Positions 19,794-31,389 of a stretch of 31,389 bases of DNA are shown here, piece by piece; within the stretch, counting starts at the first letter, position 1; each line of letters opens with the position of its first letter. The stretch comes from a virus: the IMG/VR virus record IMGVR_UViG_3300045977_000211, positions 1 through 31,389 of that record. One strand, 5' to 3'. Under the pieces are notes generated by a model, which worked only from the letters and a program-made list of their open reading frames with translations, made no database searches and was not told where the DNA came from. The translations under genes and the position numbers were made by a program.

Positions 19794-20113
19794 TGAGCGA
19801 GCGACACGACACGGGACATAGCCTCTGGCAGCTCCTGGCCGACCGATCCGCCGAGTGGATCGGCGGCCAGCTCACCGACCACGACGCGCCCGACGCGACA
19901 ACCCGCATCGCGGGCATCGCGTTCGACGGCCGCCGACTCTCGATCATTGGCGACGACTTCACCTGGGCGTGCGACCGCCAGTACTTGGTCGTCGCGCCCG
20001 CGCGCGGCGGCGACGGCTTGGAGCTGTCGGGCCTGTCGGGCGTCTTTGCGTGCACGATTCGGAAACCCACAACCCCACTAGGAGGCAGTGATGGCTCAGA
20101 TTGCGAAGTGTGA
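19793..20113 (+). CDS. Small early protein, function unknown
   Basis: 106 aa, start overlapping the upstream stop (TGATG). An N-terminal helix (HSLWQLLADRSAEWIGGQL) is followed by a small beta domain (TRIAGIAFDGRRLSIIGDDF, QYLVVAPARG, GVFACTIRKP). Its last 23 bases run into the next gene, which has its own strong ribosome site. No family recognised. Confidence 0.55.
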   Translation: MSERHDTGHSLWQLLADRSAEWIGGQLTDHDAPDATTRIAGIAFDGRRLSIIGDDFTWACDRQYLVVAPARGGDGLELSGLSGVFACTIRKPTTPLGGSDGSDCEV

Positions 20114-20420
20114 CAACTGCGGCACGGAAACCCCGGGACACCGCACCCCGTACGGCGTGGAGCTGCCCGAGGGCTGGATCACGCTGACCACCAGGCACGA
20201 GAAGGAGCTGGATGAGAAGCTCGAGGTGTGCTCGTGGGAGTGCGCCCACGAGCACGCGCAGCAGCTGCTCATCGCCGCGCACGAGGACCGGCAAGCGCAG
20301 GCCCGGCAGGACGCCATCGAGCTCGACACCATCGGGAGCGCGCCCGAGCGGCTCGGCGGCGGGCTCTCCACGTTCGCCCAGGAGACGGGGATTCCGCTCG
20401 ACAAGGACGAGGTGTTCTGA
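20091..20420 (+). CDS. Small zinc-motif phage protein (CxxC/CSWEC type)
   Basis: 109 aa. ATG 20091 has AGGAGG five bases upstream, better than GTG 20088. CDNC (residues 7/10) and CSWEC (47/51) flank a strand region (YGVELPEGWITLTTRHEKEL). Similar small phage proteins with CDxCG, PxGW and CSWEC are frequent in actinobacterial and metagenomic phages, function unknown. A helical C-terminus follows. Confidence 0.6.
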   Translation: MAQIAKCDNCGTETPGHRTPYGVELPEGWITLTTRHEKELDEKLEVCSWECAHEHAQQLLIAAHEDRQAQARQDAIELDTIGSAPERLGGGLSTFAQETGIPLDKDEVF

Positions 20421-21157
20421 TGCGCACTGCCTACACGCGCGGCTTTGTCGCCGGCTGCCTCTACGTCACGAAGTTGATCGACGCGGACGTGCTCCGCGAC
20501 GTCGCCGCGATGGCGGCCAGCGGGCGCACGATCACGGGCGAGGAGCTGCCCACCGACACGCCGGCCGAGTGGACCGCCGAGGAGCTGCGCGCCGAACGCG
20601 CGCGGCTCACCGAGTTTCTCGACGGCGCCGACTACTTCGAGAGCAAACACACGCCGGACAGTCCCGAGGCGCGCGAGGCGGCCGCCCTGGCCCGCGTGCC
20701 GGCGCACTTGCGCGAGGGGCTGCTCCGCTACCTCGACGAGCACATCCAGCCGGGGAGCTTTCTCACCTGCGTCTTGCAGAACGATCTGCGCGGCGCGATG
20801 GAGCGCGCGGACGCCGGCAGTCGCGCCGGCCTCTACGACGTCGTGTTCTTTCTCTACAACCACGCGCCGGTCGGGGCGTGGGGCGACAAGAAGGCCGTGG
20901 AACGGTGGTGCACCCCCGCCATCCCCTTGCTCTCGCCGCCGACGCTGGGCGAGGAGCTGGGCCACGCGGAGGACGGCACGGTGATGTGCCCGGGCTGCGG
21001 CGGCCGACATCCGCTCCACGGCGTGGTGTGGGACTGCTGCCTGCCGCCGGCGTACGGCGGCCTGGGGAACACCAAGACGAAGCACACCGTGCTCTACGTG
21101 TGGTGCGGGCGCACGCGGTTGATCCCGCTGGCGATTGACGGAAAGGAGCTGCCCTGA
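20420..21157 (+). CDS. Multi-part early protein with conserved phage module and zinc motif
   Basis: 245 aa, ATG overlapping the preceding stop. Residues about 97-154 (LRRYLDEHIQ-like helix, PGSFLTCVLQNDLRGAMERAD, YDVVFFLYNHAP) match a module I know as a stand-alone small protein in many phages. The first 90 residues are a separate helical section. The C-terminal 60 residues contain CPGC (190/193), CC (206/207) and a final C229 in a probable metal-binding domain. It appears to be a fusion. Function unknown. Confidence 0.55.
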   Translation: MRTAYTRGFVAGCLYVTKLIDADVLRDVAAMAASGRTITGEELPTDTPAEWTAEELRAERARLTEFLDGADYFESKHTPDSPEAREAAALARVPAHLREGLLRYLDEHIQPGSFLTCVLQNDLRGAMERADAGSRAGLYDVVFFLYNHAPVGAWGDKKAVERWCTPAIPLLSPPTLGEELGHAEDGTVMCPGCGGRHPLHGVVWDCCLPPAYGGLGNTKTKHTVLYVWCGRTRLIPLAIDGKELP

Positions 21158-21357
21158 TGGCCCGGGTGCGCATCGAGTTTCATCACCCGACGCGCGCCGC
21201 GATCTATCTCGATCACGTCCGCGCCGTGCACGATGACCTCGTGCACGGCCGCGTGACGTTCGAGCATCGCGGCGGCGCGACGAGCTACGACGGCGACGAG
21301 CTGGCCGGCTGGGGCATCGAGGACGACGAGGAGGACGAGGAGGGGACCGATGGCTGA
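21157..21357 (+). CDS. 66-aa protein, function unknown
   Basis: 66 aa, start overlapping the previous stop (TGATG). A compact beta pattern (VRIEFHHPTRAAIYLDHVRA, RVTFEHRGGATSYDG) ends in a strongly acidic tail (IEDDEEDEEGTDG). No family recognised. Confidence 0.5.
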   Translation: MARVRIEFHHPTRAAIYLDHVRAVHDDLVHGRVTFEHRGGATSYDGDELAGWGIEDDEEDEEGTDG

Positions 21358-21664
21358 GACAACTGGAGCCGGCTCCACCGCGCCGCGCGCCTCCTACGCC
21401 GGGCGCGTCACGCGCCACGTCGAGCATGTGCTCGTGGTGGACGTCGAGGCCGCCGGCTACACCGTGCGGTTCGTCCGCGAGCTGGAATGGGAGGTTGATC
21501 CGACCGCTTACGTCGAGCGGCCCGTGGGCGGCCTCGACTACTTCGATGAAGTGGACGGGTGGCGGCCCATCGGGACGCTGCCCATGCAGCAGGAGTCGGC
21601 GGCGCGCACCGCCGTGCGGCGGTGGTGCGCAGCGCACCCCTTGGATTTGCGCGACTTTTCGTAG
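21350..21664 (+). CDS. Small early protein, function unknown
   Basis: 104 aa, starting eight bases before the previous stop. A beta-rich core (YAGRVTRHVEHVLVVDVEAA, YTVRFVRELEWEVDPTAYVE) precedes a helical end (SAARTAVRRWCAAHPLDLRD). The palindrome TGGAGCCGGCTCCA lies within its first codons. Last gene before an internal promoter. Confidence 0.55.
   Translation: MAETTGAGSTAPRASYAGRVTRHVEHVLVVDVEAAGYTVRFVRELEWEVDPTAYVERPVGGLDYFDEVDGWRPIGTLPMQQESAARTAVRRWCAAHPLDLRDFS
21364..21377. repeat. Dispersed palindrome TGGAGCCGGCTCCA, copy 4
   Basis: Perfect 14-bp palindrome encoding the polar N-terminal residues TGAGST of the 21350 gene, a low-constraint position. Confidence 0.5.
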
Positions 21665-21680
21665 GTCCGGAGGTTAGGTC

Positions 21681-21711
21681 TTGACACGTCGTTATAACGC
21701 GAGAGTAAGAT
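21681..21711 (+). promoter_or_regulatory. Sigma-70-like promoter with internal operator dyad
   Basis: TTGACA (21681-21686) and TAAGAT (21706-21711) are spaced 19 bp. Between them CGTTATAACG (21690-21699) is a perfect palindrome. The region lies in the 77-bp gap before the 21742 and parB-like genes. A regulator bound to the dyad would block or realign polymerase. The spacing is longer than the optimal 17 bp. Confidence 0.5.
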
Positions 21712-21741
21712 GCGGGCTCCGGTTCAGCCAGAAAGGACACT

Positions 21742-22041
21742 GTGGAGGACAAACCCAAGGGAAACGAGCTGCTTGCGGAGGAACTGCCCCGCAAGATTCG
21801 GCTCATGGTGCAGACCCGTCGCAAAGGACGCGGCCAGCATTACACGTTCGTCGCCGGCTACTCGACCACGGTGGAGATCCGCAGCGTCGAGGAGGCCGAA
21901 CGGCTCTGGCAGGGGGTGCGGAAGCTGATCGACTCGGGGGTGTGGCATGAGCGCGGCCGCCGCGTGGCTCGTGGCGGGCACGCTGCTGCTCCTGCTGACC
22001 ATCCTCAGCCGCCCGCGCCGGTAGGTTCGACGGCGGAATAG
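21742..22041 (+). CDS. Small early protein, function unknown
   Basis: 99 aa with a GTG start, AAAGGA upstream and the promoter just before. A beta-alpha core (KIRLMVQTRRKGRGQHYTFV, STTVEIRSVEEAERLWQGVR) ends around residue 70. The last 30 residues are Arg/Ala/Pro-rich and overlap a possible small membrane ORF in another frame. Lies directly upstream of the ParB-like gene and might be co-regulated with it. Confidence 0.55.
   Translation: MEDKPKGNELLAEELPRKIRLMVQTRRKGRGQHYTFVAGYSTTVEIRSVEEAERLWQGVRKLIDSGVWHERGRRVARGGHAAAPADHPQPPAPVGSTAE
21947..22024 (+). CDS. Possible 25-aa membrane micro-protein (embedded)
   Basis: An ORF in a different frame inside the 3' end of the 21742 gene encodes MSAAAAWLVAGTLLLLLTIL plus SRPRR: one hydrophobic helix with a basic end, as in membrane micro-proteins. 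No clear ribosome site (GGGGGTGTGGC upstream is weak), so it may be chance. Confidence 0.25.
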   Translation: MSAAAAWLVAGTLLLLLTILSRPRR

Positions 22042-22068
22042 CCCGCCCCATTCACGGAGGGACAGAGA

Positions 22069-23466
22069 ATGCAGCTACAGCAGATCGACCTGACGGAGTT
22101 GAAGCCGTCGCCGTTCAATCCGCGCACGTTCATGGACGAGGCGAAGTTCCAAGACCTCGTGCGCAGCGTCGAGCAGGGGCTCATCGAGCCCATCATCGCG
22201 CGCAAGGTGGACGGGCACTTCGAGATCGTCGCCGGGGAGCGCCGCTATCGCGCGGCGAAGAAGGCGAAGCTCGGGAAGGTGCCGGTCATCGTCAAGGACC
22301 TCTCCGACGCGGCCGCGATGGAGATGCAGCTGATCGAGAACATCCAGCGCGAGGACATGAACCCGGTGGACGAGGCGGCGGGGTTCGAGCGCCTGATGAA
22401 GCTCGACCCCAAGACCTACACCGCCGAAACCCTGGCCACGAAGATCGGTTTGTCGGCGGCCAGCGTCTACCTCAAGCTCCAAGTGAACAAGCTCACCGAC
22501 GCCGGGAAGGCGCTGCTGCGCGAAGGGAAGATCGACACCGCGCACGGCGCCGCCATCGGCCGGCTCAGCGAGGCCGACCAGAGCGCCGCGCTCAAGTGGA
22601 TGGCCCAGGAGGCGAAGTATCACGACGGCACGTTCCCGAACGTGAAGCGCCTCCGCGAGTGGATCAAGCAGAACGTGCGGCTCGACCTGTTCGGCCCCGA
22701 GCTGGCGACGACACAGCCCAAGGTCCATGCGAAGCTCGCGAAGCTCCAGGCCGAGGGCATCACCCCCGTGCAGATCTCCGGCCACTGGCAGAGCAAGGAC
22801 GGCGTGCTCGGGACCGACAGCTACAAGGAGGCCGGGAAGCAGAAGTGCAAGAGCACCGAGGTTGCGTTCTTGGTCTACGGCGATGAGGTCGAGGTCGTGG
22901 AGATCTGCCGGGACAAGAAGGCGTGCAAGACCCACTACAAGTGGGAAGTGGAGCAGGCGACGGCGCGGCGGCGGCAGCTCGGGCGCGACAAGGAGACGCC
23001 CGAGAAGAAGAAGCGGCGGCTGGCGGCTGAGGCCAAGGTGAAGGCGGCCAACGCGGTCTACAAGGACGTCGTGCAGCGTGCGCTGCGCGCGGCCATCAAG
23101 CGAACGAAGAAGGTCACGCCGGCGATGCTCACGCGCCTCGTGCTGAATACGCTCGACCGCTACAACTTCGATGAGGACACCGATCAGCTGCTGGCGGACC
23201 TGAAGATTCCGCAGAAGGCGCTCGGCCTCAGCTACGACATGCTGCGCAAGGGCGACCTCCCGCGGCTCTCCGAGCAGCAGCTCGCCGCCCTGGTCATCCT
23301 GGCCGAGGGCGATGCGATGGAGTTCCCGAACAACGCGCCCGACCTCGACGCGTTCTGCAAGCGGCACAAGCTCGATCTGAAGAAGCTGAAAGCCGACGCC
23401 CTGGCGGCCGCCGCGAAGGCGAAGGAGTCCGAACCGCAGAAGCTGACCGCGCCCAAGAAGAAGTAG
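22069..23466 (+). CDS. ParB-like DNA-binding protein
   Basis: 465 aa with GGAGG eight bases before ATG 22069. Residues 5-110 are a ParB/Srx N-terminal domain: QIDLTELKPSPFNPR, FEIVAGERRYRAAKK (CTP-binding GERR box, 56-59) and LIENIQREDMNPVDEA (90-102). A helix-turn-helix follows (TAETLATKIGLSAASVYLKL, 118-137). The C-terminal half is unlike standard ParB: a middle with five cysteines (CKST, EICRDKKACKTHY and others), basic helices, and a Lys-rich tail. ParB proteins load on parS and spread as CTP-fuelled clamps. No ParA is seen in this window. Possible roles are plasmid-like segregation or gene regulation. Confidence 0.75.
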   Translation: MQLQQIDLTELKPSPFNPRTFMDEAKFQDLVRSVEQGLIEPIIARKVDGHFEIVAGERRYRAAKKAKLGKVPVIVKDLSDAAAMEMQLIENIQREDMNPVDEAAGFERLMKLDPKTYTAETLATKIGLSAASVYLKLQVNKLTDAGKALLREGKIDTAHGAAIGRLSEADQSAALKWMAQEAKYHDGTFPNVKRLREWIKQNVRLDLFGPELATTQPKVHAKLAKLQAEGITPVQISGHWQSKDGVLGTDSYKEAGKQKCKSTEVAFLVYGDEVEVVEICRDKKACKTHYKWEVEQATARRRQLGRDKETPEKKKRRLAAEAKVKAANAVYKDVVQRALRAAIKRTKKVTPAMLTRLVLNTLDRYNFDEDTDQLLADLKIPQKALGLSYDMLRKGDLPRLSEQQLAALVILAEGDAMEFPNNAPDLDAFCKRHKLDLKKLKADALAAAAKAKESEPQKLTAPKKK

Positions 23467-23474
23467 GCGCATCC

Positions 23475-23527
23475 CTCGGAGGAGGAGGACGACGGGGGCC
23501 GGGATTGCCGGTCCCCGTTCCGCGTTT
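23475..23527 (+). promoter_or_regulatory. Ribosome site separated from its start by a hairpin
   Basis: CTCGGAGGAGGAGG (23475-23488) is a strong ribosome site 39 nt from ATG 23528. Between them 23492-23518 folds into an 11-bp stem (ACGGGGGCCGG with CCGGTCCCCGT, one wobble) and 5-nt loop. Folding leaves about 12 unpaired nt between the site and the ATG. It could instead be a weak terminator after the ParB-like gene, since only a TTT tract follows. Confidence 0.45.
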
Positions 23528-23893
23528 ATGGACGACACGAGGCCGCTGCGCTGGAACCGGGTGTATCTCTACTGCTTCGTCATCGACGGCGTGCGGCCGA
23601 AGAAGCGCGGGCAGCGCCATCAACGCGGCGGGAATTGGCGGAAAGTGTGGAGCCTGACCTTGGACGGGTGGTCGCCCGCCGAGGCCCACCGATATGTCGC
23701 GGGCACGTTCAGGCGCGCGGCCGCGACGGAGCAACAGGAGACGACCGATGGACGACCGGAACTGCTACAAAGATCGCGACGCACAGAAGGAACAGGAGGC
23801 GAGGATGGAACTGAAGGCGGAACTGGCGCAGGCGAGCCTCAACCGTGGATCGAGCCCGGGCCCCCATGTGTTGGAGAACCCATACCGTGGTGA
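23528..23893 (+). CDS. Small early protein, overlapping the next gene
   Basis: 121 aa. The first 70 residues look real (RWNRVYLYCFVIDGVRPKKRG, NWRKVWSLTLDGWSPAEAHR, YVAGTFRRAA). The last 49 residues (Gly/Glu/Pro-rich) overlap the next gene in another frame for 146 bases and have a biased composition. Either the overlap is genuine or a frameshift/early stop is missing. The unusual ribosome site is described separately. Function unknown. Confidence 0.45.
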   Translation: MDDTRPLRWNRVYLYCFVIDGVRPKKRGQRHQRGGNWRKVWSLTLDGWSPAEAHRYVAGTFRRAAATEQQETTDGRPELLQRSRRTEGTGGEDGTEGGTGAGEPQPWIEPGPPCVGEPIPW

Positions 23894-24062
23894 GCAGGCA
23901 ATAACGCGCGCCTCTGCGCGCGAGTTGCTCCTCCAGCGCGCCGCGATGCTCCAGCACCGGGCGAACACCTTCAAGGCCCTAGCCGATGCCTTGCCGGCGG
24001 GAGGGCTGTCGCCGGCGGCCGACGACGCGCTGTTCTCCCTCATCATGGAAGCCGGCCACTAA
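23748..24062 (+). CDS. Small early protein, function unknown
   Basis: 104 aa, ATG 23748 preceded by AGGAG. N-terminal helix (CYKDRDAQKEQEARMELKAE), a linker, then LLLQRAAMLQHRANTFKALA with ALPAGGLSPAADDALFSLIM, a pattern seen in many small phage proteins (a coiled segment followed by a short DALP/ADxAL motif). Function unknown. Confidence 0.6.
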   Translation: MDDRNCYKDRDAQKEQEARMELKAELAQASLNRGSSPGPHVLENPYRGEQAITRASARELLLQRAAMLQHRANTFKALADALPAGGLSPAADDALFSLIMEAGH

Positions 24063-24092
24063 CCCACGCAGGCAAGAGCGAAGGAGCGCCAC

Positions 24093-24476
24093 ATGAGTGA
24101 CATCGAAGCCAAGCCCGCCTACGCCGGCCCGATTCCGGCGGTCGGGCGCATCGTCCACTACTACGACCGCGAGGAGATCGTGAGCGCCGTCCATCAGAAG
24201 CGGCCGCCCGAACCGTTCCCGGCCATCATCGCGCGCGTGTTCAAAGACACCGAAGGCGTGGTCATTCCCGACGTCGCCACCCTGACGGTATTCGACCCGG
24301 AGATCGGCGGCGCCATCGTCGTGCGCGAGTGCAAGCTCGGGCTGCTGCCGGCGCCGCGCGTGTGGCTGTGGCCGCCGATTCCGCCTGCGGCTCGCCAGCC
24401 GGCGCCGCCGCCGGCCCCGAGCGATGCGCCGGGCCCGAGCGTGCCGGTGCCGGGCGTCACCCCCGCCACCGTCTAA
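24093..24476 (+). CDS. Conserved phage protein, function unknown
   Basis: 127 aa with AAGGAG upstream. PAVGRIVHYYDR, PFPAIIARVF, VATLTVFDPE and PRVWLWPPIPP recur in that order in a family of small phage proteins of unknown function, with an SH3-like beta domain. The last 30 residues are Pro/Ala-rich and disordered. Confidence 0.65.
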   Translation: MSDIEAKPAYAGPIPAVGRIVHYYDREEIVSAVHQKRPPEPFPAIIARVFKDTEGVVIPDVATLTVFDPEIGGAIVVRECKLGLLPAPRVWLWPPIPPAARQPAPPPAPSDAPGPSVPVPGVTPATV

Positions 24477-24484
24477 CATCAATC

Positions 24485-24518
24485 GCGCCTCGACGTCCGG
24501 TGATGGAGGTCGAGGCGC
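24485..24518 (+). other. 10-bp stem-loop between early genes
   Basis: GCGCCTCGAC and GTCGAGGCGC pair perfectly around a 14-nt loop directly after the stop of the 24093 gene. No T tract follows. Instead CTCGGAGGAGGAGG, the same 14-mer as at 23475, provides the ribosome site of the next gene. Likely an mRNA-stability or weak termination element. Confidence 0.5.
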
Positions 24519-24538
24519 CTCTCGGAGGAGGAGGGCGC

Positions 24539-24952
24539 ATGGGCCTTGTGACGCGCGACAACGTGAACGACGTATTCACCTATCACCCGCCCAAGGGCGA
24601 CTGGCAGATCGAGCGGTATCACCTGCTGCGGCAGGCCGCCAAGGAGTGCGTCCTTGTGATCCTGGACGATCCGGACCCGGATGCGCGCAAGAACGCCATC
24701 GGGAAGTTCTCGCGCGTGCTGGAGGCAAACACCGGCGATTGTCGCGATCGCGCGGAGGCGCTCGGCTGTCTCGCCGCCGGGACGGCGTTTGTCGGCGCGG
24801 CCGCGCTGGCGTCGGCCGACGAGCGCAGCGATGTCGAGGGCCGTCTCGTGCAGGCGACCGCGCAAGAGGAGGCCACCCAGGCCATCGTGGCGGCCGTCCG
24901 CGCGGCGCTCATGTGGGCCAACGCGAGCATCGCGCTCGGCGCGCAGATTTAG
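24539..24952 (+). CDS. Acb2/Tad1-like nucleotide-sponge protein with insertion
   Basis: 137 aa with GGAGGAGGAGG upstream of ATG 24539. FTYHPPKGDWQIERYHLLRQ (residues 13-32) with a following helix (AKECVLVILDD), and MWANASIAL (125-133) at the end, match the small Acb2/Tad1-type hairpin family, whose members bind cyclic oligonucleotides or cyclic ADP-ribose signals of CBASS and Thoeris. In the usual small proteins the YHPP and WANAxIA motifs lie much closer together. Here about 50 extra residues (around 66-115, Ala-rich with two Cys) separate them. Function as a sponge is inferred from family resemblance. Confidence 0.6.
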   Translation: MGLVTRDNVNDVFTYHPPKGDWQIERYHLLRQAAKECVLVILDDPDPDARKNAIGKFSRVLEANTGDCRDRAEALGCLAAGTAFVGAAALASADERSDVEGRLVQATAQEEATQAIVAAVRAALMWANASIALGAQI

Positions 24953-24965
24953 GAGACGAGGAGAC

Positions 24966-25289
24966 ATGGCGACGGTGGCGAAACGGATTTGCGACCTGTG
25001 CGGCAACGCCGTGCAGGACCCGCAGGAGCCGATGGGGTATCTCTACCTGCCCAGCGGCACCCAGGAGCACATCAACGCGCGCGTGCAGGCGGAGCTGCAG
25101 CGGCGCGTGAACGACAACCCGCTGCTCATCGTGAGTGGCCACGCGCAGCGCCTGGGCGAGGAGATCTACCGCGAGCTGTCGGGCCAGCGCTGGGACGTCT
25201 GCAAGCAGTGTGTCGAAGGCCTGACGGCGGTCGCCGGCGCCCGCCTCATGGCCTGGATGGCCGCCGGCTTTTTCAAGAAGCAGGAGTAA
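24966..25289 (+). CDS. Zinc-motif protein, function unknown
   Basis: 107 aa, ATG after GGAGACGAGGAGAC. CDLC (9/12) and CKQC (79/82) form a split zinc ribbon holding a helical insert (INARVQAELQRRVNDN, RLGEEIYREL). A C-terminal hydrophobic helix (VAGARLMAWMAAGFF) follows. Function unknown; lies next to the recombination genes. Confidence 0.6.
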   Translation: MATVAKRICDLCGNAVQDPQEPMGYLYLPSGTQEHINARVQAELQRRVNDNPLLIVSGHAQRLGEEIYRELSGQRWDVCKQCVEGLTAVAGARLMAWMAAGFFKKQE

Positions 25290-25291
25290 CG

Positions 25292-25840
25292 ATGTTCACA
25301 ACCCCAAATGTCCCGGTCTACCTCGACTTCATCGAGCCGGCGACCGGCAAGAACGCGGACGGCGACGAGCTGCACATGGTGATCGCCACCTTCCGCATCC
25401 ACCCCCTCACCCCCGAGCTCGCCGGCGAGATCGACAAGGCCGTGCGCGCCGTGCTGTTCGACACGAAGGGCGAGCTGCTGGCGCGCATCAAGAGCGTGGG
25501 CTTCGACCTCACCATCCTTCCGCAGCAGGTCGAGTTCCGGTCGGCGCCCGACGTCGCGCGCCCGTGGTGCACGTTCCCCTACGCGGAAATCTCCGCCATC
25601 AAGGCGGCCAAGCACAAGGACGTGTCGGGCTTCGCCCTGACGTTCAAGGCGAAGGCCGAGACGCCCGACAAGGACCAGCTCGCGCGCCTGCACAAGAACT
25701 ATTTGAAGCAGACGTTTCTGACGGTCGCGGCGGCCGACCGCGATCTCATCACGGAGATGCAGGGCGCGGAGAAGGCGGCCGAGACGACCCGGCCGAAGAA
25801 CCGCCGGCTCGAGGAGGGCGCCAGCGATGTCACGCATTGA
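25292..25840 (+). CDS. Conserved recombination-cluster protein
   Basis: 182 aa with CAGGAG upstream. Beta-rich N-terminus (VPVYLDFIEP, ELHMVIATFRIHPLTPELAG), then FDLTILPQQVEFRSAPD, WCTFPYAEISAIKAAKHKD and a helical C-terminus. Proteins of this type often sit beside YqaJ nucleases in phages. It may be an accessory to the annealing/exonuclease pair. Overlaps the start of the nuclease gene by 14 bases. No family name claimed. Confidence 0.6.
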   Translation: MFTTPNVPVYLDFIEPATGKNADGDELHMVIATFRIHPLTPELAGEIDKAVRAVLFDTKGELLARIKSVGFDLTILPQQVEFRSAPDVARPWCTFPYAEISAIKAAKHKDVSGFALTFKAKAETPDKDQLARLHKNYLKQTFLTVAAADRDLITEMQGAEKAAETTRPKNRRLEEGASDVTH

Positions 25841-26765
25841 GCAGTTCACGTCGCGGCCCGAGTGGTTGGCGGCGCGGCGCACGGGCATCGGCGCTTCCGA
25901 CGCGGCGGCGCTGTTCGGCGTCAGCCCGTACCATTCGCGGCTCTCGCTCTACTTCGAGAAGCGAGGCCTCGTGGAGATGGGCGAAGCGGAGTCGGAGGCC
26001 ATGTATTGGGGCCGCACCCTGCAGGAGCCCATCGCCGCGCGCTACGCCAAGGAGACGCGGCGGCGGATCGTGCTCGGCGGCGAGTTCGATTTGCGCCGGC
26101 ACGAGGGGGAGCCCTTCATGATCGCCACGCTCGACGCGATGGCCGAGATCGACACGGAGCGGCAGTCGCAGCCGGCGCCGGGGGGCGGGACGGGCCCGGG
26201 CGTGGTCGAGATCAAGAACACCGGGTTCTTCAAGCGTGAGGACTGGACGGACGAGCCGCCGCTGCCGTTCTTGATTCAGGCCAACCACCAGATGTACGTC
26301 GAAGGCACGCAGTGGGCGAGCGTGGCGGCCCTGGTCGGCGGCAACATGTTCTTCTACGCCGACCTGAAGCGCAACGACGCCTTCATCGAGGTCCTCGTCA
26401 AACAGTGCCGCACGTTCTGGGAGGATCACGTCCTGGCCGGCAAGGAACCCGCGCCCGACGCCAGCGAGGCCACCAAGCGGGTGCTGAAAGCGCTGTACCC
26501 GCGCGACACGGGCGAAGCCAAGGCGTTGCCGGCGATGTACGTCGATATCGACGCGGAGCTGGAGAAGGTAAAGGCGGAACAAAAGAAGCTCGACAGCCGC
26601 CGGGACGAGTTGGAAGCCAAGCTCAAACTCGCCATCGGCGCCGCGTCCATCGGCATCATCGGCGACAGCGGGGTCAGCTACACCTACCGCACCGTCGAGG
26701 AAGCCATCGTGCCGAGCTTCACGCGGAAGGCCTACCGGACGCTCCGCCGGCGGGAGCCGAAGTGA
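25827..26765 (+). CDS. YqaJ-type phage exonuclease
   Basis: 312 aa. The pattern of lambda-exonuclease/YqaJ recombinases is clear: WLAARRTGIGASDAAALFG (13-31), MYWGRTLQEPIAARY (59-73, E67), FMIATLDAMAEID (97-109, D103), VVEIKNTG (126-133, E128/K130) and LIQANHQMYVEG (149-160). It should resect double-strand ends 5'-3' to give single strands for RecT. The C-terminal 60 residues are a coiled helix and a short tail. Pairs with recT at 27984. Confidence 0.85.
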   Translation: MSRIEQFTSRPEWLAARRTGIGASDAAALFGVSPYHSRLSLYFEKRGLVEMGEAESEAMYWGRTLQEPIAARYAKETRRRIVLGGEFDLRRHEGEPFMIATLDAMAEIDTERQSQPAPGGGTGPGVVEIKNTGFFKREDWTDEPPLPFLIQANHQMYVEGTQWASVAALVGGNMFFYADLKRNDAFIEVLVKQCRTFWEDHVLAGKEPAPDASEATKRVLKALYPRDTGEAKALPAMYVDIDAELEKVKAEQKKLDSRRDELEAKLKLAIGAASIGIIGDSGVSYTYRTVEEAIVPSFTRKAYRTLRRREPK

Positions 26766-27070
26766 GCGGGTGGGGCATCGGCCGGCGGCGGAACGTGCAG
26801 GAGCTGCAGGCGGTGCAGGGGTTCAATCCGCAGCGCGTGCGCGATCTGACCTCGACCATCGTCGCGCAGCTGCGGCTCAACAGCTGCACGCCGCTGGAGA
26901 TCCTCGGGGTCGCGGATACGACCTTCATGACCATCGCCACGACCCTGCTGGAGGTCGCGGAGCCCGGCCCGAAGCGCGAGGCGGTGCGGAAAGACCTGAC
27001 CGACATTCTGGACCGGATGCGGCGGGCGGTGGAGACGGCTCCAACAAACACGAGTGGTGAGGTGCAGTGA
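26762..27070 (+). CDS. Small early protein, function unknown
   Basis: 102 aa with GTG start overlapping the nuclease stop (GTGA). Helical throughout (NVQELQAVQGFNPQRVRDLT, STIVAQLRLNSCTPLEILGV, FMTIATTLLEVAE, LTDILDRMRRAVE). No family recognised. Lies within the recombination cluster. Confidence 0.5.
   Translation: MSGWGIGRRRNVQELQAVQGFNPQRVRDLTSTIVAQLRLNSCTPLEILGVADTTFMTIATTLLEVAEPGPKREAVRKDLTDILDRMRRAVETAPTNTSGEVQ
27030..27043. repeat. Dispersed imperfect palindrome TGGAGACGGCTCCA, copy 5
   Basis: Same 14-mer as at 12986-12999, here in the C-terminal codons of the 26762 gene. Confidence 0.4.
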
Positions 27071-27303
27071 TGGCGGACAAGCGAACTGAGGAGAAGGGCG
27101 ACGGCAAGAACCCGCTGCTGGAGGAGTCCCAGGGGCCCGACCGGAAGGGGAAGTATCTCGTGCTCGGCGCGCGCCGCCAGGGCGGGCAGATGGCGGTCAT
27201 CGGGTTCGAGACAGAGCTGGCGACGGCGGTGGCGCAGCAGAGCATCCTCACGAAAACCGGGTGGGCGTGCGTCGAGATCTACACGCGAGTGGACAAGGCG
27301 TGA
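27070..27303 (+). CDS. 77-aa early protein, function unknown
   Basis: 77 aa, ATG overlapping the previous stop (TGATG). A polar N-terminal 30 residues, then YLVLGARRQGGQMAVIGFET, a small beta-alpha unit, and WACVEIYTRVDKA. No family recognised. Confidence 0.5.
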   Translation: MADKRTEEKGDGKNPLLEESQGPDRKGKYLVLGARRQGGQMAVIGFETELATAVAQQSILTKTGWACVEIYTRVDKA

Positions 27304-27614
27304 GGCATCCGCTCGAACCGGGTCCAAGCCTCCTCGTGGCCCATCGCTGCGACGATCACCGGGCGATGGCGCCGCTGAACAACGCGGCGGAGGCGCTGAC
27401 GATCTACCCCTTCGAGGGGCGGCCCCACGCGCACATCCTTGGGACGGGCCCCCGAGGAGAAAGGATCACGGCGGAATGCGGCGGCTGCATCGCAGAGGAG
27501 GTCGAGGGCCTGTACCAGACGGTCCTCGACCTGATGGACACCATCGCGGACCAGTTGACCGCACACGCGGAGCTGCGGCGGAAGCTGGAGACGCAGGAAC
27601 GGTTCGGCCTGTGA
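27300..27614 (+). CDS. Small early protein, function unknown
   Basis: 104 aa, GTG start overlapping the previous stop (GTGA). The segment ALTIYPFEGRPHAHILGTGP, ERITAECGGCIAEEVEGLYQ and a C-terminal coil (DTIADQLTAHAELRRKLE) is compact, with one CxxC. No family recognised. Confidence 0.5.
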   Translation: MRHPLEPGPSLLVAHRCDDHRAMAPLNNAAEALTIYPFEGRPHAHILGTGPRGERITAECGGCIAEEVEGLYQTVLDLMDTIADQLTAHAELRRKLETQERFGL

Positions 27615-28003
27615 TGCTGCCGCCGGGCGTCCTGTACGAAGCGACCTACCACGGCGAGGCGTATTACGTGCTCTACGACGGGTCGCGGGCGGTCGAGACG
27701 CGCGCTGCGGCCGCTGAGGTCGCGGAGCAACGCGAGCGGGGGGCCATCGTCAAAGCCGTGCGACAGGTCCTCCGCTCCGCCGCGTTTCACCGGGCCTATT
27801 CGCTGGCCCAGATCCGCGAACGGGCGAGCACGATCATCGGCTACGAGGTCGAGCTGCCGCAGACCAACAACGCCGTCTGGGTGCTGCGCCAGAACGGTGA
27901 AATCGAGTGTGTGGCCAGTCGGAAAGGCGAGACAGGTCACTCCTACGACCCCCATTCCACCTTCTATCGCTGGAAGGAGTCCCATGCAACTACTCCGGAT
28001 TGA
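27614..28003 (+). CDS. Possible winged-helix protein
   Basis: 129 aa, start overlapping the previous stop (TGATG). N-terminal strands (YEATYHGEAYYVLYDG) precede IVKAVRQVLRSAAFHRAYSL, AQIRERASTIIGYEVELPQT and NNAVWVLRQNGEIECVASRK, which reads like a winged helix-turn-helix. It overlaps recT by 20 bases. A regulatory role is only inferred. Confidence 0.5.
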   Translation: MLPPGVLYEATYHGEAYYVLYDGSRAVETRAAAAEVAEQRERGAIVKAVRQVLRSAAFHRAYSLAQIRERASTIIGYEVELPQTNNAVWVLRQNGEIECVASRKGETGHSYDPHSTFYRWKESHATTPD

Positions 28004-28907
28004 CGACCGCGCGAAGCTCATTGCCGATGTGGTCAACGACAAGTGGAACCGGCGCGCGCTCCTGAACTCGGCGCCCGCGCATCTCGCCCTGGCCGCGCGG
28101 GAGCGCCTGCTCTCCGTCGCCCTGTCCAACATCTGCTACGACCCGAAGATGATGGAGGTCGCCCAGACCAAACACGGGCTCGTGTCGATCTTCGCCGGCA
28201 TCCAGGAGGCCTCGCGACTCGGCATCGAGATCGGGGGCTCGATGGGCGAGTGCTGGCTCGTCCCGTTCAACAACAGCAAGATCGGCGCAAAGCTCGCCGT
28301 GTTCATCATCGGCTACAAGGGGATGATCAACATCTGCGAGCGGTCCCGGTGCGACGTGATCGCCTATCCCGTGTTTCAGGGCGACACGTTCAGCTACCAC
28401 TACGGCGACGACCCGCGCATCTTTCACACGCCGGCGGCCGACAACCTGCCGCAGAACAAAGACACGCTGACGCACGCCTACGCGGTCGCCACCCTGCGGA
28501 CCAAGACCAAGAAGCGGCTCGTGTTGACGCGGGCACAGATCGACCGGCACAAGGCCCGGTCCCGAGGCGCCGACAAAGCCGACTCGCCGTGGAATCACCA
28601 GCAGGATTTCATTCCGATGGCGATGAAAACGGCCGTCCGCGCGCTGTTCCCGCAGTTGCCGAAAACGACCGACATGGCCCGGGCGCTCGACTCGGAGATT
28701 CGGGCGGAGCTGGGCGAGCCGACAGCGGTCAATCACGAGGTCTACGACGAGGAGTTCAAGCTCCACCTGCCCCAGGAGCTGCAGGAGCCGGAGGACAAGC
28801 GGAGCGCGCTCGACAAGCTCGCGGAGGCTCAGGGCGCGGAGGGCACGACGACAACCCCGCCGACACCGCCGGTCAGCTTGACCGACGACGACATCAAGTG
28901 GGGGTAG
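27984..28907 (+). CDS. recT: RecT-family single-strand annealing protein
   Basis: 307 aa, ATG with GGAAGGAG upstream. SIFAGIQEASRLGIEIGG (68-85), ECWLVPFNN (89-97), AVFIIGYKGMINICERS (105-121) and AYAVATLRTK with MAMKTAVRALFPQLP are hallmark RecT segments. The C-terminal 50 residues are acidic and disordered, ending in TDDDIKWG, like tails that bind partner proteins. It pairs homologous single strands made by the YqaJ nuclease at 25827. Confidence 0.85.
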   Translation: MQLLRIDDRAKLIADVVNDKWNRRALLNSAPAHLALAARERLLSVALSNICYDPKMMEVAQTKHGLVSIFAGIQEASRLGIEIGGSMGECWLVPFNNSKIGAKLAVFIIGYKGMINICERSRCDVIAYPVFQGDTFSYHYGDDPRIFHTPAADNLPQNKDTLTHAYAVATLRTKTKKRLVLTRAQIDRHKARSRGADKADSPWNHQQDFIPMAMKTAVRALFPQLPKTTDMARALDSEIRAELGEPTAVNHEVYDEEFKLHLPQELQEPEDKRSALDKLAEAQGAEGTTTTPPTPPVSLTDDDIKWG

Positions 28908-28910
28908 GCC

Positions 28911-29240
28911 GTGGACCAGACCGTGAATCCGCCGGTGGCGGACCAGTGCGAGCAATGTGGCAAGCCGCTGCGCCCGGCGTGGCAGCCCCGCGTCGAACAG
29001 GTCGAGGGCCGACTGCAGACGATCAAGGGCCGCGTGCCCCGGTTCTGTCGCGGGAGTCGATGTCGGTCGGCGTGGCATGCCGAGCACAAGCGGCGACACC
29101 TCAGCGAGGTCCTGCGGCACATTGAACAGGCGCTCATCGAGCTGGCCGACCGCCCGGGCTATCCCCGGCCGATCTCGGCCCGCATCGAGTTGCAAGAGGC
29201 CGTCGCGAAACTGACGCCGCTCGTGCGGAAAGCGCCATGA
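28911..29240 (+). CDS. Zinc-motif protein, function unknown
   Basis: 109 aa, GTG start three bases after the recT stop, with GGGGTAGG upstream. CEQC (13/16) and FCRGSRC (46/51) form a possible zinc ribbon that resembles treble-clef or HNH-like ends. A helical C-terminus follows (LSEVLRHIEQALIELADR, RIELQEAVAKL). No nuclease motif was confirmed. Confidence 0.55.
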   Translation: MDQTVNPPVADQCEQCGKPLRPAWQPRVEQVEGRLQTIKGRVPRFCRGSRCRSAWHAEHKRRHLSEVLRHIEQALIELADRPGYPRPISARIELQEAVAKLTPLVRKAP

Positions 29241-30193
29241 GTCGCACCTATTCGATTCTGACGTTCGACCGTTTCACCGGCGGCTCCGGGAAGCGGTGGC
29301 GGCGCGAGATCGAAGGGCGGCCGAAAGGCGACCCGATGCGGGAAGCCTTCAAGGACGCCCAATATCTGGCGGACGTGCTCATCGCGAACCCGCACGCGAA
29401 CATGTACGGGCTCTACTACATCACGCGCGCGACGATGCTGGAGCTGACCGGGCTGCAGCGTGAGGAGCTCGGGGAGGCCCTCCGACTACTGCAACACGAC
29501 AGCTTCGCCTATTGGGACGAAGAAACAGACATGGTGTGGCTGCGGGAGATGGCCCGCATTCAGATGTTCCTGCCGCTGAAGCCCAACGACAAACTCATCA
29601 AACCCGTCAATCAGTGGTATCGCACCTGCCGGCGGAACCCGTTCCTCGGGCCGTTCTTCGATCGCTACGCCGTCGACCTTCATCTGGAGGCGCGGCGTGA
29701 CTTCGCCGGCGAGCGCCTCCAGACCCTGCCGCTGGAGCCGGCTCCAGCGCCGGCGGCCGCGCCGGCGGCGGCGGAACCGTCCCCGATGCATCAGTGGTTC
29801 CTGATGTTCGTGGAAGCCTTCCCGGCCTCGCGGCGCGTGGGCGGCCTCAGCGGCTTTCAGGCGTTCCGCCGCGCCTTCGCCGGCATCGAGGACCGCGAGG
29901 CGCACATGGCGCTCCTGCTCGACGCCCTCTGGTATCAGACCCGCAGTGACGAGTGGCGGCAGGGCATCATCCCGAGCATGGTGAAGTGGCTCGACGAGCA
30001 ACATTGGCTCCGACACCATCGCCGGCCGGCGGGCACGTTCGGCGGCGAGACAGGGATGGGCTGTGAGCACGGCTGCGCCAACGCCGGCGAACACGCCCTG
30101 CGGGTGGAGCTGGATAAGACGTGCCGGCATGAGCCGCGCTGCGCGTCGTTCTTCGACCACTACCAAGCCAGTGCGGCGGCGGTGTCGTCGTGA
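29237..30193 (+). CDS. DnaD-like replication protein
   Basis: 318 aa, ATG overlapping the previous stop (ATGA). N-terminal winged-helix-like region (LYYITRATMLELTGLQREEL, LRLLQHDSFAYWDEETDMVW), then REMARIQMFLPLKPNDKLI and YRTCRRNPFLGPFFDRY, a pattern of phage replisome organisers. A Pro/Ala linker (about 165-180) joins a C-terminal domain (FVEAFPASRRVGGLSGFQAF, ALLLDALWYQTRSDEWRQG) that recurs in phage DnaD/DnaT-like proteins, and a short Cys/His tail (CEHGCA, CRHEPRC). It should load the host helicase at the origin. Family call moderate. Confidence 0.55.
   Translation: MSRTYSILTFDRFTGGSGKRWRREIEGRPKGDPMREAFKDAQYLADVLIANPHANMYGLYYITRATMLELTGLQREELGEALRLLQHDSFAYWDEETDMVWLREMARIQMFLPLKPNDKLIKPVNQWYRTCRRNPFLGPFFDRYAVDLHLEARRDFAGERLQTLPLEPAPAPAAAPAAAEPSPMHQWFLMFVEAFPASRRVGGLSGFQAFRRAFAGIEDREAHMALLLDALWYQTRSDEWRQGIIPSMVKWLDEQHWLRHHRRPAGTFGGETGMGCEHGCANAGEHALRVELDKTCRHEPRCASFFDHYQASAAAVSS
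29731..29748. repeat. Dispersed palindrome GCTGGAGCCGGCTCCAGC, copy 6
   Basis: Longest copy, a perfect 18-bp palindrome, in the stretch encoding the Pro/Ala linker of the DnaD-like protein. Confidence 0.5.
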
Positions 30194-30714
30194 GAGGCCA
30201 GTTCCACAAGTTCAACGCCAAGCCCTATCTCGTCACGCCCGACCTGCAGCTCATCGCCAAGGAGACGGTGCAGCAGATCGCCGTGCAGCGCGGCATCAGT
30301 CTCGAGACGGGCAAGGTCGACAAGAGGCAGCGGCCGATTCCCGTGAGTCTCGTGCGGTTGGGCGAGCTCGTGGGCATCGACGGCGCGTTCTTCGGATCGA
30401 AGCGCGAGGCCTCGCGCTGGGTCGAGTTGAAGCTGGCGGAGCGCGGGGGAAAGGTCCGGAACCTCAAGCGGGCGCCGCGCTATCCGTTGCACGTCGTCAA
30501 CCCGCAGGGGCTGAAGGTGCGGGTGTCGGAATACACGGGCGATTTCGAGTACGACGAGCTGCTGGAGGCCGACGACCAGGCGGTGCGGCTGTTCAACGAG
30601 CCGGTGGGCTGGCAGCACGTCATCGAGGAGAGCAAGGGGTTCCCGACCAAGGATTGGGAGCTGCGGAAGAAGTGGGTGGAAACCGAACACGGCATCGTGA
30701 TTCGGGTGACGTAG
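30190..30714 (+). CDS. DUF1064-type (PD-(D/E)xK-like) nuclease
   Basis: 174 aa, GTG overlapping the previous stop (GTGA). FFGSKREASRWVELKLAERG (67-86), LKRAPRYPLHV, YTGDFEYDEL (115-124, D118) and HVIEESKGF (143-151, E147/K149) match the DUF1064 phage family, thought to be a resolvase/endonuclease of the PD-(D/E)xK type. It may process recombination or replication intermediates made by YqaJ and RecT. Activity is inferred. Confidence 0.65.
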   Translation: MRGQFHKFNAKPYLVTPDLQLIAKETVQQIAVQRGISLETGKVDKRQRPIPVSLVRLGELVGIDGAFFGSKREASRWVELKLAERGGKVRNLKRAPRYPLHVVNPQGLKVRVSEYTGDFEYDELLEADDQAVRLFNEPVGWQHVIEESKGFPTKDWELRKKWVETEHGIVIRVT

Positions 30715-30723
30715 GAGGCAGCA

Positions 30724-30876
30724 ATGGACGACTTGCGCGCCCCGGGCGCACAGGAGGAGTTATGGCAGTTTCTCCATCGCATCGTCAACGTCGTGCTGGC
30801 AGTCTGCGCGGTCATCGCGGGGCTCAGTCTCGTGGTGCTGTTCGCCAAGCTGTGTGTGTGGGCCGTGGGACGGTGA
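30724..30876 (+). CDS. 50-aa single-span membrane protein
   Basis: 50 aa with GGAGG five bases upstream. A polar start (DDLRAPGAQEELWQFLHRIV) leads into one hydrophobic helix (VLAVCAVIAGLSLVVLFAKL) and a short end. Could be a holin-like or anchoring protein, but it lies in the early region, so lysis is unlikely to be its role. Not in most gene predictions because of its size. Confidence 0.55.
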   Translation: MDDLRAPGAQEELWQFLHRIVNVVLAVCAVIAGLSLVVLFAKLCVWAVGR

Positions 30877-30883
30877 GGCCGGT

Positions 30884-31389
30884 ATGGACCTTGAGGAAGT
30901 GGCTCGCACTCGTCGCGCAGATCGAGACGCGCGTAAAGCGGCTGGAAGGCCTGTATTCAACGTCGACAAGACGCGCTACATCCAGCGGGAGCTGCTCGGG
31001 TGGGCGTGCTACGCCGGGGCGGTCGACGCCGCGGGTTATTTCCACGGCACGCGCGCTGGTGTCTGCGCTGAGGAAGCTACCGCCGATTCCTGGCTTGACG
31101 GCGGCCGCGTCTACTTCGACCAAAAAGCGGACGAAGGCGGCACGCTCCGCGTCGGCGGCGGGTGGTCGGACCACGACCCCCTCTGGGAAGCCGCGAAGCT
31201 CCACGAGGACGACGAGCGGCTCGCGTATATCCCCCAGCCGGGGTTCGTCTGCAACGGGACGCACAAAGGCGAAGCGTGCGGGGAAGGCTGCTACATCGTG
31301 GCCGCCCGACTACGCCATTTGAAGCAGCGCGTCTTGCCGAGATGGCTGCGGGCGGCGCGGCGGAAACGGCGACGAGGGAAAGAGTGTTA
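30884..31389 (+). CDS. Protein of unknown function, partial (3' end off window)
   Basis: Open from ATG 30884 to the window edge, at least 168 aa. After a basic lead come FNVDKTRYIQRELLGWACYA, TRAGVCAEEATADSWLDGG, VYFDQKADEGGTLRVGGGW, LAYIPQPGFVCNG and EACGEGCYIVAARLRH, then a basic C-terminal stretch. The pattern is compact and Cys-containing. A longer plus-strand open frame (30063-31322) overlaps this region but is Arg-rich and was rejected. No family recognised. Confidence 0.55.
   Translation, partial: MDLEEVARTRRADRDARKAAGRPVFNVDKTRYIQRELLGWACYAGAVDAAGYFHGTRAGVCAEEATADSWLDGGRVYFDQKADEGGTLRVGGGWSDHDPLWEAAKLHEDDERLAYIPQPGFVCNGTHKGEACGEGCYIVAARLRHLKQRVLPRWLRAARRKRRRGKEC

Follow-up and report, generated by a model that had tools for sequence, protein, structure and literature searches.

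The closest described relatives of the protein discussed here are Acb2 and Tad1, the two members that give the Acb2/Tad1 hairpin family (PF24729, Acb2_Tad1_hairpin) its name. Acb2 (anti-CBASS 2; T4 Vs.4, Pseudomonas phage p26) is encoded by a short phage gene and carries a pocket tyrosine and a C-terminal MWA motif, and these features are shared by the present protein. For T4 Acb2, Y8A is mentioned as a binding-deficient mutant in PMC12657230, and a figure legend of the same article reports lowered binding for T68M. Deletion strains of T4 are described in PMC11722364. Tad1 (Thoeris anti-defense 1) is described in PMC12043709 with a beta-sheet at its N-terminus. Among the papers listed by literature searches, none mentions in its title or abstract that Acb2 or Tad1 carries an insertion.

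A homologue of this family with an internal insertion is encoded in a stretch of 31,389 bases of viral DNA, the whole of which is called the window below (IMG/VR record IMGVR_UViG_3300045977_000211). The gene (24539-24952, plus strand) begins with ATG and specifies 137 residues, with YHPPKGD at residues 15-21 and MWANASIAL at residues 125-133; its evidence is the open frame, third-position G+C, PF24729 and an in-house family profile. A likely ribosome-binding site, GGAGGAGGAGGG, is found in the sequence 5' of the ATG (24524-24535, plus strand). The G+C content of third codon positions is 0.75-0.95 over the entire gene, insert included, and a simple gene finder that works on codon positions accepts the gene along with the flanking genes. 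The frame at 24539-24952 is genuinely coding. A frameshift artefact was ruled out, the remaining frames being without a family match: all other window frames of at least 30 residues (512 tested) reach at most 4.1 bits to the family profile.

The record is that of a tailed phage, and the gene belongs to its early-gene half, in the company of genes for ParB (22069-23466), a YqaJ/RecE-like exonuclease (25827-26765), RecT (27984-28907) and a DnaD-like protein (29237-30193), while the terminase, portal and major head protein genes occupy the opposite strand. The phage is far from known phages: portal and terminase are 21-29% identical to those of known phages among the matches listed, and a megablast of window positions 20001-31389 against phages gave no match. 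Searches with the neighbouring genes returned one distant relative, without the family gene, and a second search returned none. The product of the next gene (24966-25289) has 107 residues, with CDLCGNA close to the N-terminus and CKQC later; it is possibly a small zinc-binding protein, and no relative of it was found in viral_contigs.

The earlier note had assigned YHPPKGD and MWANASIAL to the Acb2/Tad1 hairpin family, and homology was indeed found at both ends and in the right order. PF24729 matches residues 14-56 (E 1.7e-4, 22.1 bits) and stays below its curated gathering score of 27, because the domain is split and only the N-terminal stretch is counted. The in-house profile, made from 96 relatives with the window protein left out, scores 39.8 bits over residues 4-44 and 15.5 bits over residues 114-133, in total 61.4 bits, in comparison to 10.7 bits for the best of 2000 shuffles of the 137-residue protein. 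The C-terminal part on its own reaches 19.7 bits, and 2000 shuffles of the same part do not exceed 11.0 (1640 shuffles of the whole protein and 1987 of the C-terminal part are among the matches listed). Since these scores far exceed those of the shuffles, the two motifs are to be regarded as one split domain and not as a coincidence, and with residues 58-120 omitted the in-house profile gives 69.4 bits as a single continuous domain. The conserved N-terminal part (24548-24670, plus strand, residues 4-44) comprises YHPPKGD and helix 1, predicted by AlphaFold2 at residues 21-43; within it YHPP (residues 15-18, 24581-24592, plus strand) places Y15 opposite Tyr8 of T4 Acb2 in the alignment. MWANASIAL (24911-24937, plus strand) forms the end of a predicted helix 99-132, scores 15.5-19.5 bits and is aligned to MWACRAV of T4. 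All 87 rows of alignment A2, the window protein included, match PF24729 at E <= 0.01. PADLOC gave no match for the 137-residue protein, and its NCBIfam matches are far under the cut-off. As a statement of homology the family assignment holds; the protein is filed as a variant, because it departs from an ordinary member in spacing, in the Pfam cut-off and in the pocket threonine.

The profile search also bears out that an internal insertion separates the two halves of the family domain. Its length had been put at about 50 residues and has to be corrected to 62-63, as the phenylalanine before YHPP and the tryptophan of MWAN (F13-W126) stand 113 residues apart in the window protein, against 50 in ordinary relatives. 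The zone of the approximately 63-residue insertion (24674-24898, plus strand) was delimited by family profile, alignment and AlphaFold2 helices; placement is at residues 46-108 by predicted helices and at 58-120 by sequence alignment, and of the predicted helices, 47-65 and 69-91 fall within the zone, together with the beginning of 99-132. Spacing was surveyed in 33,376 frames of at least 40 residues from all collected loci, which yielded 243 family matches (E <= 1e-3), a figure that is not a gene count because loci of one contig were sampled repeatedly. They fall into 153 distinct stretches. Of these, 141 are whole hairpins free of insertions and deletions, 4 have one extra residue, 1 is split and 7 are partial, either because the gene is interrupted (stop, frameshift or Ns) or because the domain is matched only partly. 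Both ends could be judged in 146 distinct stretches and the window protein is the sole split one among them. The insertion is thus exceptional among the sampled relatives, and this form comes so far from one sequence; with no second protein found to have it, selection on the insertion cannot be shown.

Relatives of the insert were found neither by protein search of viral_contigs and of the phage and plasmid collections, nor among known families, where nothing recognisable appeared. A DNA pattern for YHPP followed at wide spacing by MWA occurred in 71 stretches, with 1 in-frame read-through that fell within an unrelated 516-residue frame, and a second pattern (YHAP) in 62 stretches, with in-frame reads in 4, all without a match to the family profile; both patterns are blind to relatives with different anchor residues. 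The relative searches covered the best 80 of 119 confirmed relatives in one search and the best 80 of at least 134 in another, and as their queries were either the pair of motifs or the N-terminal part, insertion forms without these would escape them. In genomes of two phyla a family match was seen in 6 of 297 and 9 of 294, respectively, and the insertion in none. Internal duplication of the hairpin was ruled out as a source (the best self-alignment score, 22, is equalled or beaten by 73.5% of 200 shuffles), and a weak second profile stretch of 5.4 bits at residues 52-79 is no evidence for it. Copying of the insert from elsewhere in the window was rejected as well, the protein and DNA matches being short and at chance level, and phrog_31113 (166 positions) was dismissed as a longer form, being matched by all 87 rows and having no match in the window record. 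The top structural match in BFVD, an uncharacterised 128-residue protein of an uncultured Caudovirales phage (A0A6J5S3V7; E 0.023, probability 1.00, 24% identity), is possibly another insertion form.

Several relatives deserve a separate remark. Four of them (L017, L213, L276 and L222) have one extra hairpin residue each, in at least three of the four just behind YH.P, and the extra W22 of the window protein stands in the same place. Three genomes (L223, L224, L225) from the phylum of L132, Bryobacterales, encode a nearly identical divergent hairpin, FRYHSP...MMANAAVA, with VPGRVHKA in a C-terminal tail. On one contig (L231 and L235) the hairpin gene is spread over two frames, with FTYHPPKEGQ in one and DSREKALALTKLEEAVMWANAGIARNE in the other, likely through a frameshift. 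The gene of L181, from 1316, joins a hairpin domain to a C-terminal extension of more than 100 residues and is a possible fusion.

Pocket-side residues are mostly kept in the alignment. Apart from Y15, residues M125-N128 are aligned to MWAC of T4 Acb2 (T4 protein taken from the T4 record), so that MWANASI stands opposite MWACRAV. The pocket tyrosine is likewise Tyr in the other 86 of 86 alignment rows, and wherever the 87-row alignment has an invariant column, six in all (Y15, P18, Q23, Y27, A127, N128), the window protein keeps the residue. The position of T4 Thr68 is occupied by Ala118. Threonine is not universal at this position, since only 67 of 96 relatives have it; Arg is found in 18 and non-Thr residues in 29, and relatives of the W type have Thr in 57 of 66. 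Two nearly invariant alanine columns read V38 and G55, the latter reading hinging on gap placement.

The AlphaFold2 monomer prediction, with 87 input sequences, has a mean pLDDT of 87.5 and a pTM of 0.80, with helices at 9-12, 21-43, 47-65, 69-91 and 99-132; its weakest interior is residues 81-100 (block means 77 and 75). The control, the closest ordinary relative (L134), gave helices at 6-12, 20-43 and 48-73 with a pLDDT of 90.3. The first long helix and the following turn are alike in both models, and in the window model two more helices come before the final helix, at whose end MWANASIA stands. The monomer is thus predicted to be a four-helix bundle, in contrast to the two-helix hairpin of L134. 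The earlier note had held that a different predicted fold would speak against the family reading, and here the outcome is divided: the predicted bundle is a different monomer fold, but the two-helix hairpin may still sit inside it. Where a four-helix bundle runs up and down, its helices 1 and 4 are adjacent and antiparallel, and these two helices of the window protein would presumably be placed as the arms of the Acb2 hairpin are. A four-helix bundle is a common arrangement, uninformative on function, and helical bundles reach middling-to-high structural Z by chance. The best VIA-align 2 rows for the window model were FAT/CCM3/vinculin-type four-helix bundles (1k40: Z 12.1, rmsd 2.2, 108 aligned), which belong to adhesion proteins of eukaryotes. 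Foldseek against the PDB returned nothing for the window model at E <= 0.001, neither model matched Acb2 or Tad1 at that threshold, and no solved Acb2 or Tad1 was among the matches listed for the window model in the structural search. The L134 model scores Z 5.5 against 7uq2 and Z 5.2 against 9ptq, values which unrelated helical chains reach as well. Helical moments of the window protein were uninformative.

An even chance may be given to the explanation that the gene encodes a working phage counter-defence sponge whose head-end pocket survives and whose assembly is changed by the tail-end insert. Such a protein would have descended from the Acb2/Tad1 hairpin family. Its N-terminal YHPPKG loop and the C-terminal end of the MWANASIA helix would meet at the head of the helix pair, the place where family members bind cyclic dinucleotides or cyclic ADP-ribose. 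The approximately 63 inserted residues would lie at the tail end, forming a second helix pair that packs on the first and closes the four-helix bundle, and because the insertion is at the hairpin end opposite the pocket motifs, a dinucleotide or cADPR pocket could survive. This pocket would sequester a nucleotide immune signal, be it a cyclic dinucleotide from CBASS or an isomer of cyclic ADP-ribose from Thoeris. The inserted pair would replace or block subunit contacts and lead to an assembly unlike the Acb2/Tad1 hexamer; the nearly indel-free hairpin of all sampled relatives fits a protein packed tightly in an oligomer. We infer that helices 1 and 4 pack together and that a pocket forms, and likewise the ligand, the mode of assembly and the role in infection. 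Three consequences of the insertion had been offered by the earlier note, namely an additional pocket, an oligomer interface and an altered ligand choice, and changed assembly seems to fit the predicted bundle best. A more specific version, in which the inserted helix pair stands in for a neighbouring hexamer subunit and yields a smaller, self-contained single-chain particle, is doubtful; the dinucleotide or cADPR pocket would then be kept, and the site for trinucleotides, which lies at the trimer interface, given up or re-formed.

The sponge reading has to be weighed against a former sponge that has lost signal binding, the insertion and the missing pocket threonine having produced a stable four-helix bundle with another role or none. 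This is the less likely course, yet one to be taken seriously: Ala118 at the Thr68 position, V38 and G55 in near-invariant alanine columns and an insertion seen in no relative of a family with otherwise invariant spacing all agree with it. Against it, the six invariant columns are all kept though the insertion separates them in sequence, the frame is intact with its codon signature and a likely ribosome-binding site, and position 118 is non-Thr in 29 of 96 relatives too (Arg in 18). A further ligand pocket contributed by the insertion, or an altered choice of ligand, is unlikely. The 62-63 residues could make a helix pair according to AlphaFold2, and another sponge family offers a precedent, Tad2, whose high cGG affinity is ascribed to a long insertion in a review (PMC12043709); the inserted helices, however, are Ala-rich and of no recognisable family, and the insert has no relatives that could show conserved surface residues.

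Neutral lengthening of the hairpin tail, which would leave assembly and ligand unaffected, is more improbable still. T4 Acb2 is also longer than the ordinary clade (68 vs 48 residues, Tyr to Trp), but the model breaks at 44-46, 66-68 and 92-98 and so describes a bundle and not a single long hairpin. An assembly error or chimera in the virus record is highly improbable: although the insertion is present in one record only and G+C is 74.6% over residues 58-120 vs 62.6% over 1-57, the frame is kept at both joins, the family motif is intact at the end, the next gene follows 13 bases on, and residues 121-137 are similarly G+C-rich (72.5%). Hardly any credit can be given to a membrane-tethered form with residues 75-93 as a transmembrane segment; this stretch gives the peak 19-residue Kyte-Doolittle mean (1.72), but it consists mostly of Ala and Gly and is one bundle helix in the AlphaFold2 model.

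A natural homologue in which the long helices are doubled and both pocket motifs kept offers a test of whether signal trapping needs the hexamer, and also of how the sites for dinucleotides, trinucleotides and cADPR can be uncoupled from one another. If the single-chain version is true, phage sponges would have a new means of adjusting which immune signal they trap, and also of escaping decoy-based sensing of the Panoptes kind. If the protein binds nothing, it marks a limit of the family.

Among known systems, the ordinary YHPPKGDQ...M[W/T]ANASIA hairpins (PF24729, phrog_1454), mostly of uncultured phages, have at most 62% N-terminal identity to the window protein among the best 80 of 119, and their spacing is fixed, with no longer insertion in 145 of 145 whole ones and one extra residue in 4. 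The C-terminal helix of Tad1 (SRE..AL...EEA.MW.N) aligns to the family profile with E 0.056-0.092; unlike Tad1, the window protein has no N-terminal beta-sheet in the AlphaFold2 prediction. Judged by sequence, Acb2 homolog 43 (PDB 9ptq; profile A2, E 6.9e-5) comes nearest among the solved relatives; it is a 76-residue chain without the insertion and matches L134 structurally with an rmsd of 3.0 over 59 aligned residues. Its entry is titled 'in complex with 3'cADPR', which puts cADPR signals beside cyclic dinucleotides as candidate ligands. The distance from the pocket tyrosine to the tryptophan is 48 residues in the ordinary clade, 68 in T4 Acb2 (Tyr8-Trp76) and 111 in the window protein, which differs from T4 Acb2 in 43 more residues between the same two positions, in Ala for Thr68 and in a predicted four-helix bundle.
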